Source of the DNA: Spiroplasma platyhelix PALS-1
Lineage (GTDB): Bacteria; Bacillota_I; Bacilli_A; Mycoplasmatales; VBWQ01
NCBI RefSeq assembly: GCF_021496725.1
Contig: NZ_CP051215.1
Span: 620,001-684,000 of the forward strand
DNA: 64,000 nucleotides
Direction: 5' to 3'
Positions 24,695 to 34,096 of the stretch are shown here, piece by piece. Below the pieces are notes generated by a model. It searched no databases, was not told where the DNA came from, and saw only the letters and a program-made list of their open reading frames with translations. The position numbers and the translations under genes were made by a program. How positions within the stretch are numbered: the stretch's first letter is position 1; every line of letters starts with the position of its first letter.

Positions 24695-24723
24695 TTGACA
24701 AAAAAATTAAATCATTTTACAAA
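24695..24723 (+). promoter_or_regulatory. Putative promoter of the cobalamin-riboswitch/nrd operon
   Basis: TTGACA at 24695-24700 is followed after 17 bases by TACAAA (24718-24723), a weaker -10. It lies about 40 bases before the first helix of the riboswitch. The stretch 24533-24694 upstream is AT-rich and shows no gene. Confidence 0.45.
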
Positions 24724-24762
24724 TATAAATATTAAAAGTAAAATAACCTTACAACTAAAAAA

Positions 24763-24912
24763 TGAAAATTAGATGTTCGGGAAAAAGATGAGAATTCTTT
24801 GCTGTCCCAGCAACTGTAAAGCTGATGAACGTTAGATATACCATTGAAACAATTGTTTTGAGAAGGCTAACTAGTAAAATGAAGCCAAGCCAGTAGACCG
24901 GTCTAATTTTCA
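24763..24912 (+). promoter_or_regulatory. Cobalamin riboswitch aptamer
   Basis: The closing helix P1 is perfect: TGAAAATTAGA (24763-24773) pairs with TCTAATTTTCA (24902-24912). Inside are the conserved blocks of AdoCbl-type riboswitches in the right order: TTCGGGAAAAAGATGAGAAT, then the near-invariant GCTGTCCCAGCAACTGTAA (24811-24829), and the B12 box AAGCCAGTAGACCGGTC-like sequence ending at about 24903 (GCCAAGCCAGTAGACCGGTC). This is a strong match to the cobalamin riboswitch consensus. In all known cases ligand binding represses the downstream gene. Here the downstream operon is class I ribonucleotide reductase. Confidence 0.93.
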
Positions 24913-24956
24913 CAAAGTTACTATTCCTGGGGGTGAATATTTAATTATTTTAAATA

Positions 24957-24994: not shown

Positions 24995-25017
24995 ATAAAA
25001 TAATTTTAATTTCAACG

Positions 25018-25042
25018 AATGCCTCCTATAGGCATTTTTTAG
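25018..25042 (+). terminator. Riboswitch expression-platform terminator / Shine-Dalgarno sequestrator
   Basis: AATGCC (25018-25023) pairs with GGCATT (25031-25036) and runs into TTTTT, an intrinsic terminator just before nrdF. The loop strand CCTCC (25022-25026) is also complementary to the nrdF ribosome binding site GGAGG (25057-25061), and ATTTTTTA downstream can pair with TAAAAAAAT, so the same segment could alternatively hide the translation start. Confidence 0.7.
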
Positions 25043-25067
25043 TTAGTAAAAAAAATGGAGGAAAATA

Positions 25068-26090
25068 ATGATAGAAAATAAAAACAATTATTATCAAAAA
25101 TCTCTTTCACCATTGGAATATGCTAACAATGGATTTAAAGGCAAAATGCGTTCAGTAAACTGAAACTTCATTAATGATGATAAAGATTTAGAAGTCTGAA
25201 CTCGTGTAACACAAAACTTCTGACTACCAGAAAAAATTCCAGTATCAAATGATTTAACTTCATGAAAAAGTTTAACTTTTGAATGACAACAATTAGTTAC
25301 AAGAACATTTACAGGTTTAACACTATTAGATACAATCCAAGCAACTGTTTGTGATACAGCACAAATTCCTCATTCCTTAACTGACCATGAACAAGTTATT
25401 TATGCTAATTTTGCTTTTATGGTTGCTGTTCATGCTCGTGCATATGGAACAATTTTTTCAACTTTATGTTCTAGTGAACAAATTGAAGAAGCTCATGAAT
25501 GAGTTATCAATACAGAAAGTTTACAAAATCGAGCACGCGCATTAATTCCTTATTATTCTAATAAAGATCCATTAAAATCAAAAGTTGCTGCTGCACTTAT
25601 GCCAGGATTTTTATTATATGGGGGATTTTATTTACCATTTTATTTATCAGCTCGTGGTAAGTTATCAAACACTTCTGATATTATTCGATTAATTTTAAGA
25701 GATAAAGTAATTCATAACTACTATAGTGGTTATAAATATCAAAGAAAAGTTAAAAAACTTTCAATAGAAAAGCAACTAGAAATGAAAAAGTTTGTTTTTG
25801 AATTACTAAATCAATTAATTGATTTAGAAAAGAAATATCTAACAGAACTTTATCAAGGTTTTAATTTAGCAGAAGATGCAATTAGATTTAGTTTATATAA
25901 TGCTGGAAAATTCTTACAAAATTTGGGTTATGATTCACCTTTTACTGAAGAAGAAACAAGAATTGCACCAGAAATTTTTACTCAACTATCTGCACGAGCA
26001 GATGAAAATCATGACTTTTTTTCAGGAAATGGTTCATCTTATGTTATGGGAATTAGTGAAGAAACTGAAGATGAAGATTGAGAATTTTAA
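25068..26090 (+). CDS. nrdF: Ribonucleotide reductase R2 (NrdF), metal-free VPK variant
   Basis: The 340-residue protein is clearly NrdF: FTGLTLLDTIQ, YANFAFMVAVHARAYGTIFSTLC, GFLLYGGFYLPFYLSARGKLSNTSDIIRLILRD. In normal NrdF six residues (Asp, Glu, His, Glu, Glu, His) hold a dimetal centre. Here Asp88, His122 and His216 remain but the three Glu are Val119, Pro179 and Lys213. This Val-Pro-Lys set defines the NrdF2/class Ie proteins, shown in Mesoplasma florum to carry a stable DOPA radical on the tyrosine without metal; that tyrosine corresponds to Tyr126 here. The partner NrdI supplies superoxide for the one-time tyrosine hydroxylation. GGAGG precedes the start. First gene of the riboswitch operon. 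Confidence 0.96.
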
Positions 26091-26110: not shown

Positions 26111-28723
26111 ATGCATAATGATGTAATCAAAGTTACAAATGAAAAAATAGTAAAACCTCAAGGAAAAATTTATATTGTTTACTTTTCATCAACTTCTAAC
26201 AATACTCATAGATTTATTCAAAAATTAGAAGTAAAAAATTCAAGAATTCCTTATGACATAAAAGAAGAAATCTTAGTTGATCAAGAGTATGTACTCATTA
26301 CACCAACTTATAGCGGTGGTGGTGAATTTAAAAGTGGCGCTGTTCCAAAGCAAGTAATTAATTTTTTAAATAAAAAACAAAATCGTGATCTTTGTCGTGG
26401 AATAATGGCTTCTGGAAACACAAATTTTGGTAATACATTTGCGATGGCAGGCCCAATTCTTTCAAAAAAATTAAATGTACCCCTACTCTATCAATTTGAA
26501 TTATTAGGAACTAAAAATGATGTAGAAACAATAAAAAATATTTTAGTAGATTTTTGAATAAAACCTGAAAATAAAAAAATTTCAACTCTATCAGGTAATT
26601 TTGAATCTGATGAATATATTACTCTAAATGCAAAAACAAAATTATTTGATTGAGATAAAGATAATTTTAAACTAGATTTTGCTGCAGCAAAATCTTATCT
26701 AAAAAATCACATTATCCCTAATTCAAAAAAATTTAATAGTACCAAAGAACGAATTGAATATTTAGTTAAAAATAAATATTATGATGAAAAAATAATAAAT
26801 AAATATTCAATTGCTAAAATTGAAAATTTAACAAACCAAGCTTATAGTTACAATCATTATTTTCCAACTTTTGTATCTGCTTTAAAATTTTTCAATGCTT
26901 ATGCTTTAAAAAGTTTTGATGGAAAAGAATATTTAGAAAATTATGAAGATCGAGTTATCATGAATGCGTTATTCTTTGGTGATGGCAAAATTAGTAAAGC
27001 AAAAAAAATCTTAAATGAAATAATGTTAGGTAGATTCCAACCAGCTACACCAACCTTCTTAAATGCTGGCAAAAAACAACGTGGTGAATATGTTTCTTGT
27101 TATCTTTTACGCATTGAAGATAACATGGAATCAATCGCTCGTGGTATTTCAACTTCTTTGCAACTTTCAAAATCTGGTGGCGGGGTAGCTTTATGTTTAA
27201 CAAATCTAAGAGAATGTGGTGCACCAATTAAAAATATTGCTAATCAAGCTACAGGTGTAATTCCAGTGATGAAAATTTTAGAAGACTCATTCTCTTATGC
27301 TAATCAATTAGGACAAAGACAAGGAGCAGGTGCAGTTTATTTAAATGCTCATCATCCAGATATTATGTCATTTTTAGATACAAAAAGAGAAAATGCTGAT
27401 GAAAAAATTAGGATTAAATCTTTATCTTTAGGAATAGTAATTCCAAATATCACTTTTGAATTAGCAAAAGATAATAAAGATATGGCACTTTTTAGTCCTT
27501 ATGATATTAAAAAAGTTTATAAAAAATCAATGACTGATATTTCTGTCACTCAAGAATATTACAAGATGTTGAATAATCCAAAAATTAAAAAAACTTTTAT
27601 TAGTGCAAGAAAATTATTTCAAACAATTGCAGAATTACATTTTGAAAGTGGCTATCCCTATTTATTATTTGATGATACAGTAAATAATCGTAATGCTCAT
27701 CCAGGTAGAATTGTTATGAGCAACTTATGTAGTGAAATTATTCAAGTTAGCACAGCTAGCAAATATAATAATGATTTAAGCTTTAAGCATATTGGCCAAG
27801 ATATTTCTTGTAATTTAGGAAGTGTTAATATCGCTAAAATGATGGAAAGTGGTAGTGAATTTTCCCAATCAATTGAAGAAGCAATTTATGCTTTAGATCA
27901 TGTTTCTAGAAATAGTAACTTATCTACTGCACCCTCAATTAAAGAAGGCAATAAAAACAATCATGCTCTTGGTCTAGGAGCAATGAATTTACATGGTTTT
28001 TTAGCAACAAATCATATTTTTTATAACTCTAAAGAAGCCGTTGATTTTACTAATATTTTCTTTTACACTATGGCTTATCATGCTTTTAAAGCTTCAAATA
28101 AATTAGCAGAGCATTTTGGTTCATTTGTTGAATTTAAAAATTCAAAATTTGCTGATGGTTCTTATTTTGATAAATATACTCAATGTGATAAGGAGAAATG
28201 AAAACCAGCTACAAAAAAAATTAAAGAATTATTTGATAAATATCAAATTGAAATTCCCACACAAAATGATTGAAAAAAATTAGTAACAAAAATTAAAACA
28301 ATAGGAATCGCTAATTCTCATTTAATGGCAGTAGCACCAACTGGTTCAATTAGTTATTTATCTGCATGTACTCCAAGTTTACAACCAATTGTATCTCCAG
28401 TTGAAGTTCGTAAAGAAGGCAAATTAGGAAGAGTATATGTTCCAGCTTACAAAATTAATGTTGATAATTTACCTTATTATTTGTCTGGAGCATATGAAAT
28501 TGGACCTAATCCAATTATTGATATCGCTGCAGCAGCACAACAACATGTTGATCAAGCAATATCATTAACTCTCTTTATGACAGACAAAACAACTACACGT
28601 GATTTAAATAAAGCTTATATTAAAGCTTTTAAGCAAGGCTGCTCATCAATTTATTATGTTCGCGTTAGACAAGAAGTTTTAGAAAATAGTGAAAATTATC
28701 AATGTGATGCTTGTGTTATATAA
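26111..28723 (+). CDS. nrdIE: NrdI-NrdE fusion: flavodoxin activator joined to ribonucleotide reductase large subunit
   Basis: One frame of 870 residues, without a stop when UGA is Trp. Residues 1-150 are Nrd[15 protein letters not shown] binds FMN phosphate (Ser26-Thr32), then [23 protein letters not shown] and [18 protein letters not shown]. From about residue 160 it is NrdE, beginning [15 protein letters not shown]. The R1 radical and redox cysteines are present: Cys330 (EYVSCYLL), Cys540 (MSNLCSEI) and Cys567 (ISCNLGSVN), plus the C-terminal pair Cys865/Cys868. No ATG occurs in frame between the NrdI end and residue 284, deep in NrdE, so a separate nrdE start is not evident. NrdI and NrdE are normally separate proteins. 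AAGGAG lies before the start, 20 bases after nrdF. Confidence 0.94.
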
Positions 28724-28787: not shown

Positions 28788-29972
28788 ATGATCAAACTAT
28801 TTAGTTTACTAACATCTATTACATTAGGTTCAACAGGAACAATTTCTGCTGCAACTTACATTTTAGAAAATAATCAAAAAAATGAAGTACCGCCTTGAAT
28901 CAATCAAATGATTCAAGGCAATCCAAATGAAATTAGTGTTGGCTATGATCATTACTTATTAGTTAACAAACATCAAGACAAGCAAGACTATTTTCAACAA
29001 AAAGATTGAATGGATTTTAATCAAAACAAAAACCTTTATCTCTACTTACCAGAAGCAAATAGTATTGATGAAGCAATTCAAAATGTGGTAGTTGATGATA
29101 GTGCAAAAACTTGAACTGTTGGAATTGAAACACCAATTACTTGAACAAAAATTAATAACACAACTTATACTAATAATAGATTTATTACTCAAGATACTTC
29201 TGTAGCTAACATTGCTTTAATGGAAAATGACAAATTTAAAGAAATTATAAATAGTAACAAATGAGATTCTCTAACAACGCAAGAAAAAGAAATGTTTAAG
29301 CAATATGGCAGTTTACCTTCTTCAAGACAAGGAAAAAGTCAAGATTGATGAAATACTAATCAATGAGAAAAAAACCTTTCAACAGAAAAAAATCTTGAAT
29401 CAAGTTGAGTTAAAGATAAAAATCAAAAATTTTCTCAATTAGATTTATACAACAGATGAATTAATCAATCTGTTATTGGCATGAATGTTCCATTAAGTTT
29501 GATTGAAAAAAATTCTTTTACTTTACAGCAAACTAAAATTAATCATCTTTTTCTGTTTCAAAGCACAATAAATCAAGTTTGAAACGATAAGAATGGAAAT
29601 CTAAAAAATATCTTTACTCCTCATTGAGGTTTCACTCTAAAAATTATTAATGATGGAAATACTCTTTTTAGAACACCACAAATAATTAATTTAAAAAATT
29701 CTTTTAAAGAAGAAGTTATTAATAATTATCTAAACCAAAAAAAATACTTTTCATTTAACAGTCAAGAAACTACTAAGTTTACAAATAACTATTTAACTGG
29801 TTATAAAAACTATCAATCTTTAAATATTCATTCTATTTTTGTAATAATTTCATCACTATTAATTCTATTCTTATTTATATTTTCTTTAAATTATTCAAGT
29901 AAATATTTAATCAACAGAAGAAAAAACACATCTCAGGAGCTAAATAATGAAAAAAGAAAAAAATCAATTTAA
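28788..29972 (+). CDS. Surface protein with N-terminal signal and C-terminal membrane anchor
   Basis: The 394-residue product starts with a secretion signal (MIKLFSLLTSITLGSTGTIS, about 1-22), has a long extracellular part rich in Asn, Lys and Trp (nearly all UGA) and ends with one transmembrane helix (about 343-365, SIFVIISSLLILFLFIFSL) plus a basic tail, i.e. a type I membrane protein. There is no lipobox Cys. I recognise no domain. It follows nrdIE by 64 bases with GAGG before the start and overlaps the DUF4430 gene, so it sits in the cobalamin-controlled operon. A role as a cobalamin-related surface receptor is inferred from context only. Confidence 0.85.
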
Positions 29973-30420
29973 AAATAAAAAAAATTTTTGAAGATGAGTT
30001 GCAGGTAGTTTATTTCTAATTTTATTTGGTACTTCAGCAATAATTAATATTGCTTATTTACCAAAATACTTTGTTCTAAAAAATCAAAATGAACTAGAAA
30101 AAAATCAATTACTAAATATTAATGTTTCTGCTTATAACGAAGAAAATGGTAGTACTAAATTATTTACTTATATATATCAAACAACTCAAAAAACATTAGC
30201 TAATTTAATGATACAAGATTCCAAAACTTTTTATTTAACTCACAATGGGACATGACTTGACGCAATTAGTTATTATAATAATCAAGAAAAACAAACCATC
30301 GCATCAAAAGATCCTTATTATTGAATGGTTTACAATAATGGTGAGATATCTGGTGTTGGAATTGCTGACTTGCTTATCCATAACGGTGATAAAATAGAAT
30401 TACGTTACCAACATTATTAA
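29947..30420 (+). CDS. Membrane-anchored DUF4430/transcobalamin-like protein
   Basis: The 157-residue protein has one N-terminal transmembrane helix (about 16-38) after a basic start, then an extracellular domain. The domain end DPYYWMVYNNGEISGVGIADLLIHNGDKIELRY matches the DUF4430 / transcobalamin C-terminal-like fold, where YW...NG...VG..D..+.+GD.+E.RY is characteristic; TWLDAISYYN matches the upstream TLLDAL-type segment. Relatives of this domain bind cobalamin in transcobalamin and intrinsic factor and occur in B12-regulated bacterial loci. It overlaps the preceding gene by 26 bases with AGGAG eight bases before the ATG. Last gene of the riboswitch operon; no clear terminator follows. Confidence 0.78.
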
Positions 30421-31635: not shown

Positions 31636-33819
31636 TTAGGCAGATGGATTTTCTCCTTCGCCTGGTTGTTCTGGATTAGTTGGAATAAGTTTATCTAATT
31701 TTTCATCCATTGATGTAAGTTTATCATTTACAGCAGTTTGATTAGCATCAATTTTTGCAATTAATGCTGCTTGATTAGCATCAATTTTCCCAATTAATGC
31801 TGTTTGACCTTCCTCAATCTTAGCAATTGAATCCGCCATACCTTGCACAGCAGTAGTATTTGCATCCACTTTATCTGATACTTGTCCAAGAGTTTCTGTC
31901 AATGCTGCTTGAGCTTGTTCAATCTTAGCAATTGAATCCGCCATACCTTGCACAGCAGTAGTATTTGCATCCACTTTATCTGATACTTGTCCAAGAGTTT
32001 CTGTCAATGCTGTTTGACCTTCCTCAATCTTAGTGATTGAATCCGCCATACCTTGCACAGCAGTAGTATTTGCATCCAATTTATCTGATATTTGTCCAAG
32101 AGTTTCTGTCAATGCTGCTTGATTTGCATCAATTTTATCATTCAATGCTGTTTGACCTTCCTCAATCTTAGTGATTGAATCCGCCATACCTTGCACAGCA
32201 GTAGTATTTGCATCCACTTTATCTGATACTTGTCCAAGAGTTTCTGTCAATGCTGTTTGACCTTCCTCAATCTTAGTGATTGAATCCGCCATTCCATCCA
32301 CTGAAGCCTTAGCTGCATCTACTTTCTCACCCATCGTTGCTTGACCTTCTTCAATCTTAGTAATTGAATCCGCCATACCATCCACTGAAGCCTTAGCCGC
32401 ATCTACTTTCTCACCCATCGTTGCTTGACCTTCTTCAATCTTAGTAATTGAATCCGCCATACCATCCACTGAAGCCTTAGCTGCATCTACTTTCTCACCC
32501 ATCGTTGCTTGACCTTCTTCAATCTTAGTAATTGAATCCGCCATACCATCCACTGAAGCCTTAGCCGCATCTACTTTCTCACCCATCGTTGCTTGACCTT
32601 CTTCAATCTTAGTAATTGAATCCGCCATACCATCCACTGAAGCCTTAGCTGCATCTACTTTCTCACCCATCGTTGCTTGACCTTCCTCAATCTTAGTGAT
32701 TGAATCCGCCATACCATCCACTGAAGCCTTAGCTGCATCTACTTTCTCACCCATCGTTGCTTGACCTTCTTCAATCTTAGTAATTGAATCCGCCATACCA
32801 TCCACTGAAGCCTTAGCTGCATCTACTTTCTCACCCATCGTTGCTTGACCTTCTTCAATCTTAGTAATTGAATCCGCCATACCATCCACTGAAGCCTTAG
32901 CTGCATCTACTTTCTCACCCATCGTTGCTTGACCTTCTTCAATCTTAGTAATTGAATCCGCCATACCATCCACTGAAGCCTTAGCCGCATCTACTTTCTC
33001 ACCCATCGTTGCTTGACCTTCTTCAATCTTAGTAATTGAATCCGCCATACCATCCACTGAAGCCTTAGCCGCATCTACTTTCTCACCCATCGTTGCTTGA
33101 CCTTCTTCAATCTTAGTAATTGAATCCGCCATACCATCCACTGAAGCCTTAGCCGCATCTACTTTCTCACCCATCGTTGCTTGACCTGCTTCAACCTTAG
33201 CAATTGAATCTGCCATTCCATCAAGTTTGTCAAGCTTATCTAGTTTGTCAAGTTTAGCAACTTTTTCAAGTAATAAAGCTTGATCTTGCCCAATTTTTTC
33301 TACTTCCTCAAGAATTTTTTCAGTGTTATATTCTTGTCTGCAACTAATTTTTTCAACAATTTTAGCAAGAGTACATACTACTTTGCTAGTTTTATCAACT
33401 AATTTACTAATTTCGCTAATATCACATTTGCTATCACAATCTTTTTTACAACTATCATTTTCATCAACAAGTTTAATAAGATTACAAATTATCTTACCAA
33501 GTTTGTCAACTGCTTTATTAATATCACAAGTAGCTTCGCAATCTTTTTTATTTTTGTCATTTTCGTTTTCACAACCAGATTGAACAAGAGTATTAACTAC
33601 CTTAGTAAGTTTGTCAATTACTTTACACATTTCATTAGTACTATCATCTACGATTTGATAATCGTCAACTCCAGTAATCATTTGATCAAGTTTAGAAACT
33701 ACTAAATCAAGTTTACCTACCATTCCATTAAGGTCATCAGTTTCATTCATTCTTCTTCCATCTTCAATATATTGTTTAGAATAAGGTGCATCTCCAGATA
33801 CTTTTATTAAGCGGCTCAT
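31636..33819 (-). CDS. Large coiled-coil repeat protein, no signal peptide
   Basis: The 727-residue protein starts MSRLIKVSGDAPYSKQYIED at 33819, behind a strong GGAGGG; an upstream in-frame ATG would place that site inside the gene. Residues about 30-170 hold two Cys-rich related blocks (KKDCEATCDINKAVDKLGKI and KKDCDSKCDISEISKLVDKT). Then come about eleven near-identical 28-residue units with core DGMADSITKIEEGQATMGEK, then degenerate units with TALTETLGQVSDKVDANTTA, ending PTNPEQPGEGENPSA. The heptad-like pattern predicts a very long coiled coil. No signal peptide, lipobox or membrane helix is visible. Function unknown; the repeats suggest size variation by recombination and a structural or surface/cytoskeletal role. 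Confidence 0.88.
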   Translation of the reverse strand: MSRLIKVSGDAPYSKQYIEDGRRMNETDDLNGMVGKLDLVVSKLDQMITGVDDYQIVDDSTNEMCKVIDKLTKVVNTLVQSGCENENDKNKKDCEATCDINKAVDKLGKIICNLIKLVDENDSCKKDCDSKCDISEISKLVDKTSKVVCTLAKIVEKISCRQEYNTEKILEEVEKIGQDQALLLEKVAKLDKLDKLDKLDGMADSIAKVEAGQATMGEKVDAAKASVDGMADSITKIEEGQATMGEKVDAAKASVDGMADSITKIEEGQATMGEKVDAAKASVDGMADSITKIEEGQATMGEKVDAAKASVDGMADSITKIEEGQATMGEKVDAAKASVDGMADSITKIEEGQATMGEKVDAAKASVDGMADSITKIEEGQATMGEKVDAAKASVDGMADSITKIEEGQATMGEKVDAAKASVDGMADSITKIEEGQATMGEKVDAAKASVDGMADSITKIEEGQATMGEKVDAAKASVDGMADSITKIEEGQATMGEKVDAAKASVDGMADSITKIEEGQTALTETLGQVSDKVDANTTAVQGMADSITKIEEGQTALNDKIDANQAALTETLGQISDKLDANTTAVQGMADSITKIEEGQTALTETLGQVSDKVDANTTAVQGMADSIAKIEQAQAALTETLGQVSDKVDANTTAVQGMADSIAKIEEGQTALIGKIDANQAALIAKIDANQTAVNDKLTSMDEKLDKLIPTNPEQPGEGENPSA
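32303..33226 (-). repeat. About eleven tandem 84-bp coding repeats
   Basis: Eleven copies of an 84-base unit lie head to tail inside the coiled-coil gene. Copies differ at only a few third-codon positions (for example GCT/GCC in the Ala-Ala-Lys stretch, ATTCCA/ATACCA), showing recent duplication or gene conversion. Confidence 0.93.
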
Positions 33820-34096
33820 ATTAAACCCTCCTTTGGTATAATTTCTTTTTTTACACATTGATTATATATATGGATTTTTTTATTGTCATATTAGCAACAA
33901 TAAGAAGTATGCTTTATCTTAATAAACTAAGAACAAAAAAGAAAAAAATATTAAAAAAGTATCTAAAAGCAATTAATTAAGCAAACTAATTGCTAATTTT
34001 TATCTTGAAAAAAATAACTTTCTCTTAACTATTTTTCATTTTTTGATTAAAATTAATAATACATAAAATCAAAATAAAGAAAGGGTTGGAAGTAAT

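Follow-up and report, generated by a model that had tools for sequence, protein, structure and literature searches.

A cobalamin riboswitch precedes a ribonucleotide reductase operon of Spiroplasma platyhelix PALS-1, and we consider it likely, at a probability of roughly 85%, that this AdoCbl-type element serves as a transcriptional OFF switch of a class Ie reductase in a Spiroplasma-like mollicute. The analysis covered a 64-kb stretch of the forward strand, hereafter the window, to which all positions refer unless stated otherwise. The riboswitch class is already known (RF00174); its target and the lineage are new.

A cmscan search of the entire 64-kb window against 4227 Rfam families identified a full-length match to RF00174 (Cobalamin; model positions 1–189) on the plus strand at 24754–24920, scoring 90.2 bits (E 5.3e-21) against a gathering score of 31.5 bits; it was the sole riboswitch that the Rfam scan found in the window. 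The initial annotation had placed a cobalamin riboswitch at 24763–24912, stating that the core, the B12 box and a perfect P1 helix were all visible, and had proposed a check with the Rfam covariance models. All of these elements are present, the match lies above the gathering threshold, and 24763–24912 is exactly the span closed by P1, a perfect 11-bp helix formed by TGAAAATTAGA and TCTAATTTTCA (24763–24773 with 24902–24912) as seen upon inspection of the sequence. The aptamer contains the core GCTGTCCCAGCAACTGTAA and, by both covariance-model match and sequence check, the B12 box AAGCCAGTAGACCGGTC at 24887–24903. Its large P6-accessory region is typical of AdoCbl-type (Cbl-I) aptamers. When 17 mollicute riboswitches of the order were aligned, compensatory double changes were evident at 15 of the 34 predicted pairs. 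The element thus combines what defines RF00174, namely a score above the gathering threshold, a conserved core with its B12 box inside the span of P1, and a predicted L5–L13 kissing loop, and at the level of sequence it is confirmed as a real cobalamin riboswitch aptamer. The ligand of the nrdF riboswitch would be AdoCbl.

The leader runs on past position 24912 and comprises, in order, P13/L13, an intrinsic terminator, a Shine-Dalgarno sequence and the start of nrdF at 25068, all on the plus strand. The L5 strand CCCAG (24806–24810) is complementary to CTGGG in L13, the loop CTGGGGGT of the P13 hairpin (24922–24939), and a kissing interaction of this kind is predicted for every one of the 17 nrdF-linked leaders. 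L13 is also the predicted antiterminator strand. The terminator, recognized at 25017–25037 by a terminator scan and by folding (−8.6 kcal/mol, z −3.06), consists of an 8-bp stem followed by a T-run; one such element occurs in the leader vs 0.2 in shuffles, and it sits between the aptamer and the first gene, nrdF, as a transcriptional OFF switch requires. Its 5′ arm, TGCCTCC (25020–25026), is able to pair with L13 to form a duplex of −11.1 kcal/mol. Among the 17 nrdF-linked leaders, the 5′ arm of the terminator was the best target of L13 wherever a terminator was recognized, and the arm sequences vary by lineage (e.g., TGCCTCC, GCCCCA, ACATCC, CATCCC, TAGCCA and GACCA). The L13–terminator duplex was stronger within a leader's own sequence than with foreign leaders (permutation p 0.004, 11 representatives), single leaders being weak when compared with dinucleotide shuffles (p 0.02 to 0.48). 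A candidate promoter, TTTACA-17-TAAAAT (24716–24744, plus strand), matched the consensus at 10 of 12 positions about 10 nt 5′ of the aptamer; it is suggestive by position only, because equally good consensus matches are as frequent in shuffles.

In the mechanism that we propose, a sufficient level of AdoCbl would allow the aptamer to fold and L5 and L13 to kiss, making L13 unavailable as antiterminator so that the terminator at 25017–25037 would form. The nrdF-nrdIE genes would then be left untranscribed and dNTPs would be supplied by the B12-dependent class II enzyme, NrdJ. When AdoCbl is absent, L13 would instead pair with the 5′ arm of the terminator, leading to read-through and to the metal-free, oxygen-dependent reductase taking over. 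We infer this direction of regulation, with AdoCbl switching the operon off.

The initial annotation had also claimed that a class I reductase lies under the control of the riboswitch, and the nrdF operon 3′ of the leader is in line with this, with the subtype now refined to class Ie (VPK). The first gene, nrdF (25068–26090, plus strand), encodes a small subunit of 340 aa (NF010572, 613.7 bits) whose best relative in the PDB is 6gp2 (E 3e-200), which we take to be the VPK enzyme of Mesoplasma florum and which has identical V/P/K replacements. In an alignment of the 17 riboswitch-linked NrdF proteins, every one has V, P and K in place of the three metal-ligand carboxylates, and the gene order nrdFIE is that of class Ie (VPK) systems. 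By its predicted protein, the regulated reductase is of class Ie, in the VPK metal-free subtype, and oxygen-dependent. The second gene (26111–28723, plus strand) encodes an NrdI-NrdE fusion of 870 aa, in which TIGR00333 (nrdI) matched residues 23–150 and TIGR04170 (NrdE) residues 168–870. The two genes are fused in seven of the eight family-f1 genomes with nrdE and separate in G312, of the same genus.

Close behind nrdI-nrdE are two further plus-strand genes. The first, orf394 (28788–29972), codes for a conserved secreted or anchored protein of 394 aa, for which a fold search returned no match at E ≤ 0.001; the second (29947–30420) codes for a membrane-anchored DUF4430 protein (PF14478, E 1e-8). 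Relatives of both are found directly 3′ of cobalamin riboswitches elsewhere in the order. The DUF4430 protein has its membrane anchor at the N-terminal end, and its structural model (pLDDT 88) was used for a Foldseek search, in which all 19 matches at E ≤ 0.001 were either 3u7z (DUF4430-type) or intrinsic factor, haptocorrin and transcobalamin. The sequence profile, searched against the PDB, matched gastric intrinsic factor only, at an insignificant E of 0.23. Judged by the model, then, the protein resembles the beta domain through which intrinsic factor and transcobalamin bind cobalamin; it may well bind B12, and is probably a B12-capture protein encoded on the same transcript as nrdF. Because of the gene spacing, orf394 and the DUF4430 gene are presumed to be cotranscribed with nrdFIE, and a search for a plus-strand terminator between the operon genes up to orf394/DUF4430 found none.

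The remainder of the 744,499-base genome was examined for the use of B12. An nrdJ gene and B12 uptake through an ECF-CbrT system had both been predicted from the riboswitch, and both predictions held. Genome positions 725531–728071 encode an NrdJ of 846 aa, which scored 1318 bits with the equivalog HMM NF005991 (cut-off 854). A second cobalamin riboswitch (G000:C1:225745–225912, minus strand; 77.7 bits) is followed by a terminator and then by an ECF S component related to CbrT (6fnp; E 1.8e-8 with the single sequence and 8.7e-16 with the family profile). This S component had no Pfam or NCBIfam match and was placed via the PDB sequence; it is predicted to be part of a CbrT-like B12 importer. 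As for the suggested search for btuR/pduO, an adenosyltransferase of the CobA/BtuR type is encoded at genome positions 510115–510639 (166 bits), and the PduO type was sought in the genome and not found. Searches of the genome for B12-binding-domain enzymes and for QueG were likewise negative, which leaves NrdJ as the sole B12 enzyme identified among those searched. The second riboswitch would control the CbrT-like importer, and we therefore propose that B12 uptake rises at B12 shortage. With a riboswitch before the reductase, and nrdJ, an importer and a B12-activating enzyme in the same genome, the two routes to dNTPs are therefore probably swapped according to B12 supply.

The prevalence of this arrangement was examined in 320 genomes of the order. 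An above-threshold cobalamin riboswitch was present in 35 and an uninterrupted nrdJ in 36; a 37th genome, G316, exceeded the NrdJ cut-off with a match that is split across frames and was not counted as intact. The initial annotation had started from the view that mollicutes make almost no use of B12; as a refinement, the present genome does not stand alone in its B12 use. The first gene was nrdF for 17 of the 62 riboswitches examined, and behind most of the others come uptake genes that are CbrT-like, of the DUF4430 type or related to these. Where nrdE is present, the pairing of riboswitch and nrdF occurred in 13 of the 17 genomes whose nrdJ is intact vs 4 of the 124 in which it is not (Fisher p 6e-12, shared ancestry being ignored); counted by genus, the figures were 7 of 9 vs 0 of 23. 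Four nrdE genomes with intact nrdJ have no above-threshold riboswitch at nrdF. Conversely, the four riboswitch-nrdF genomes without intact nrdJ were G314, whose sister species have nrdJ, G315 and G316, in which nrdJ is frame-broken, and G196, which retains nrdJ fragments. Five related genomes that lack an intact nrdJ carry decaying cobalamin riboswitches, scoring below the threshold, at the corresponding site 5′ of nrdF (L175–L178 and L185). To judge by these genomes, the riboswitch-nrdF circuit is widespread in spiroplasma-type mollicutes. No cobalamin riboswitch was found at 20 nrdF loci of class Ib and Ie types, most of them outside Mollicutes.

Several other observations emerged from the survey. 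The nrdJ gene is in pieces, or carries stops or frameshifts, in G306, G308, G309, G310, G196, G315 and G316, an apparent recent loss in which some cases may be assembly errors. Of the 20 nrdF loci, that of Mesoplasma grammopterae carries a 2dG-I riboswitch instead (L095:1332–1395, 87 bits). A cobalamin riboswitch is located ~270–400 nt 5′ of a deoxynucleoside salvage operon at L059, L063, L066, L075, L080 and L087 (genomes G168, G172, G174, G165, G170 and G167, respectively); the operon contains genes for a PNP family protein, dNK, transketolase, a KDPG-type aldolase and deoxyribosyltransferase. A search for class I or II reductases in G165, G167 and G170 revealed none. In G166 (L077:1924–4146), a cobalamin riboswitch lies directly 5′ of an anaerobic class III reductase (NRDD), adjoining an ICE-like gene.

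The Shine-Dalgarno sequence of nrdF, GGAGG (25057–25061), lies 3′ of the terminator and is complementary to CCTCC (25022–25026) within it, raising the prospect that the aptamer is real but acts mainly on translation, with the CCUCC of the leader hairpin pairing with the Shine-Dalgarno sequence and termination not being used. We consider this improbable, since the letters complementary to the Shine-Dalgarno sequence are not common to the relatives, whereas a hairpin with a T-run occurs between the aptamer and the Shine-Dalgarno sequence in most nrdF-linked leaders, with differing arm sequences. Slighter still is the chance that the riboswitch mainly serves the B12-capture genes with which the operon ends, the reductase genes being passengers; such a role would suit the relatives of orf394 and the DUF4430 protein that directly follow cobalamin riboswitches in many related genomes, but in 17 genomes nrdF comes first behind the riboswitch, mostly without capture genes downstream, and its pairing with the riboswitch tracks nrdJ.

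The sub-threshold remnants show that relics of this riboswitch are known in sister lineages, and the element studied here might in principle be another decayed or non-functional copy. To this reading we assign the least credence of all, given the 90-bit full-length match, the perfect P1, the intact core, kissing loop and terminator, and an intact nrdJ in the same genome. Transcriptional control of the class Ie operon thus remains the preferred reading.

The closest known parallel is nrdABS of Streptomyces, where, as cited in PMC4991794, a cobalamin riboswitch allows AdoCbl to control transcription (Borovok et al., 2006). Both have a cobalamin riboswitch 5′ of a class I reductase and a class II NrdJ in the same genome; the Streptomyces enzyme is of class Ia and from an actinomycete, whereas the present one is a metal-free class Ie enzyme of a mollicute with a probable B12-capture gene in the same gene run. 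In Mesoplasma florum, a 2′-dG-I riboswitch is located 5′ of nrdF (Kim et al., 2007, as cited in PMC12268651), which likewise places a riboswitch with transcriptional termination before a mollicute reductase gene, and the M. grammopterae nrdF carries the same family; that riboswitch senses the product deoxyguanosine, whereas the one described here would sense the cofactor of the alternative enzyme. Among cobalamin riboswitches functional in B. subtilis, 37 of 38 had a terminator (PMC9600662), and the present element shares with the RF00174 members of that study the aptamer, the L5–L13 kissing loop and the termination platform. The same source describes how the metE riboswitch silences a B12-independent isozyme when the B12-dependent one, MetH, is usable; the logic is the same here, but the enzyme pair is another. 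We found no open literature that joins Spiroplasma with a cobalamin riboswitch, or with a riboswitch and ribonucleotide reductase. A survey of the class Ie enzyme lists 93 Mycoplasmatales VPK genes and leaves riboswitches unmentioned (PMC11846895), and a 2009 survey of 17 mollicute genomes reported a cobalt transporter in none and 88% without nickel or cobalt use (PMC2667541).

Mollicutes have so far been counted as largely without cobalt and B12 use, and the 744-kb genome studied here holds a minimal, complete-looking B12 economy consisting of an importer, an adenosyltransferase, one detected enzyme and two riboswitches, in which B12 supply would be linked to which of two reductases is used, the class II enzyme or the metal-free one. 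A broader reading, to which we give even odds, is that a cobalamin regulon governs the whole dNTP supply of Spiroplasma-type mollicutes: it would set the choice between class II and class Ie here and act through the class III and salvage riboswitches in relatives, the membrane-anchored intrinsic-factor-like protein of the operon would capture host B12, and loss of nrdJ would be followed by decay of the riboswitch. The DUF4430 protein is a candidate surface B12 scavenger of insect-associated bacteria, and the series of intact, decayed and absent riboswitches in relatives that keep or lose nrdJ makes the evolution of the switch directly testable. Elsewhere in the window, the minus strand at 31636–33858 encodes a protein in which a coiled-coil repeat recurs many times in near-identical form (GMADSITKIEEGQ...KVDAAKASVD).
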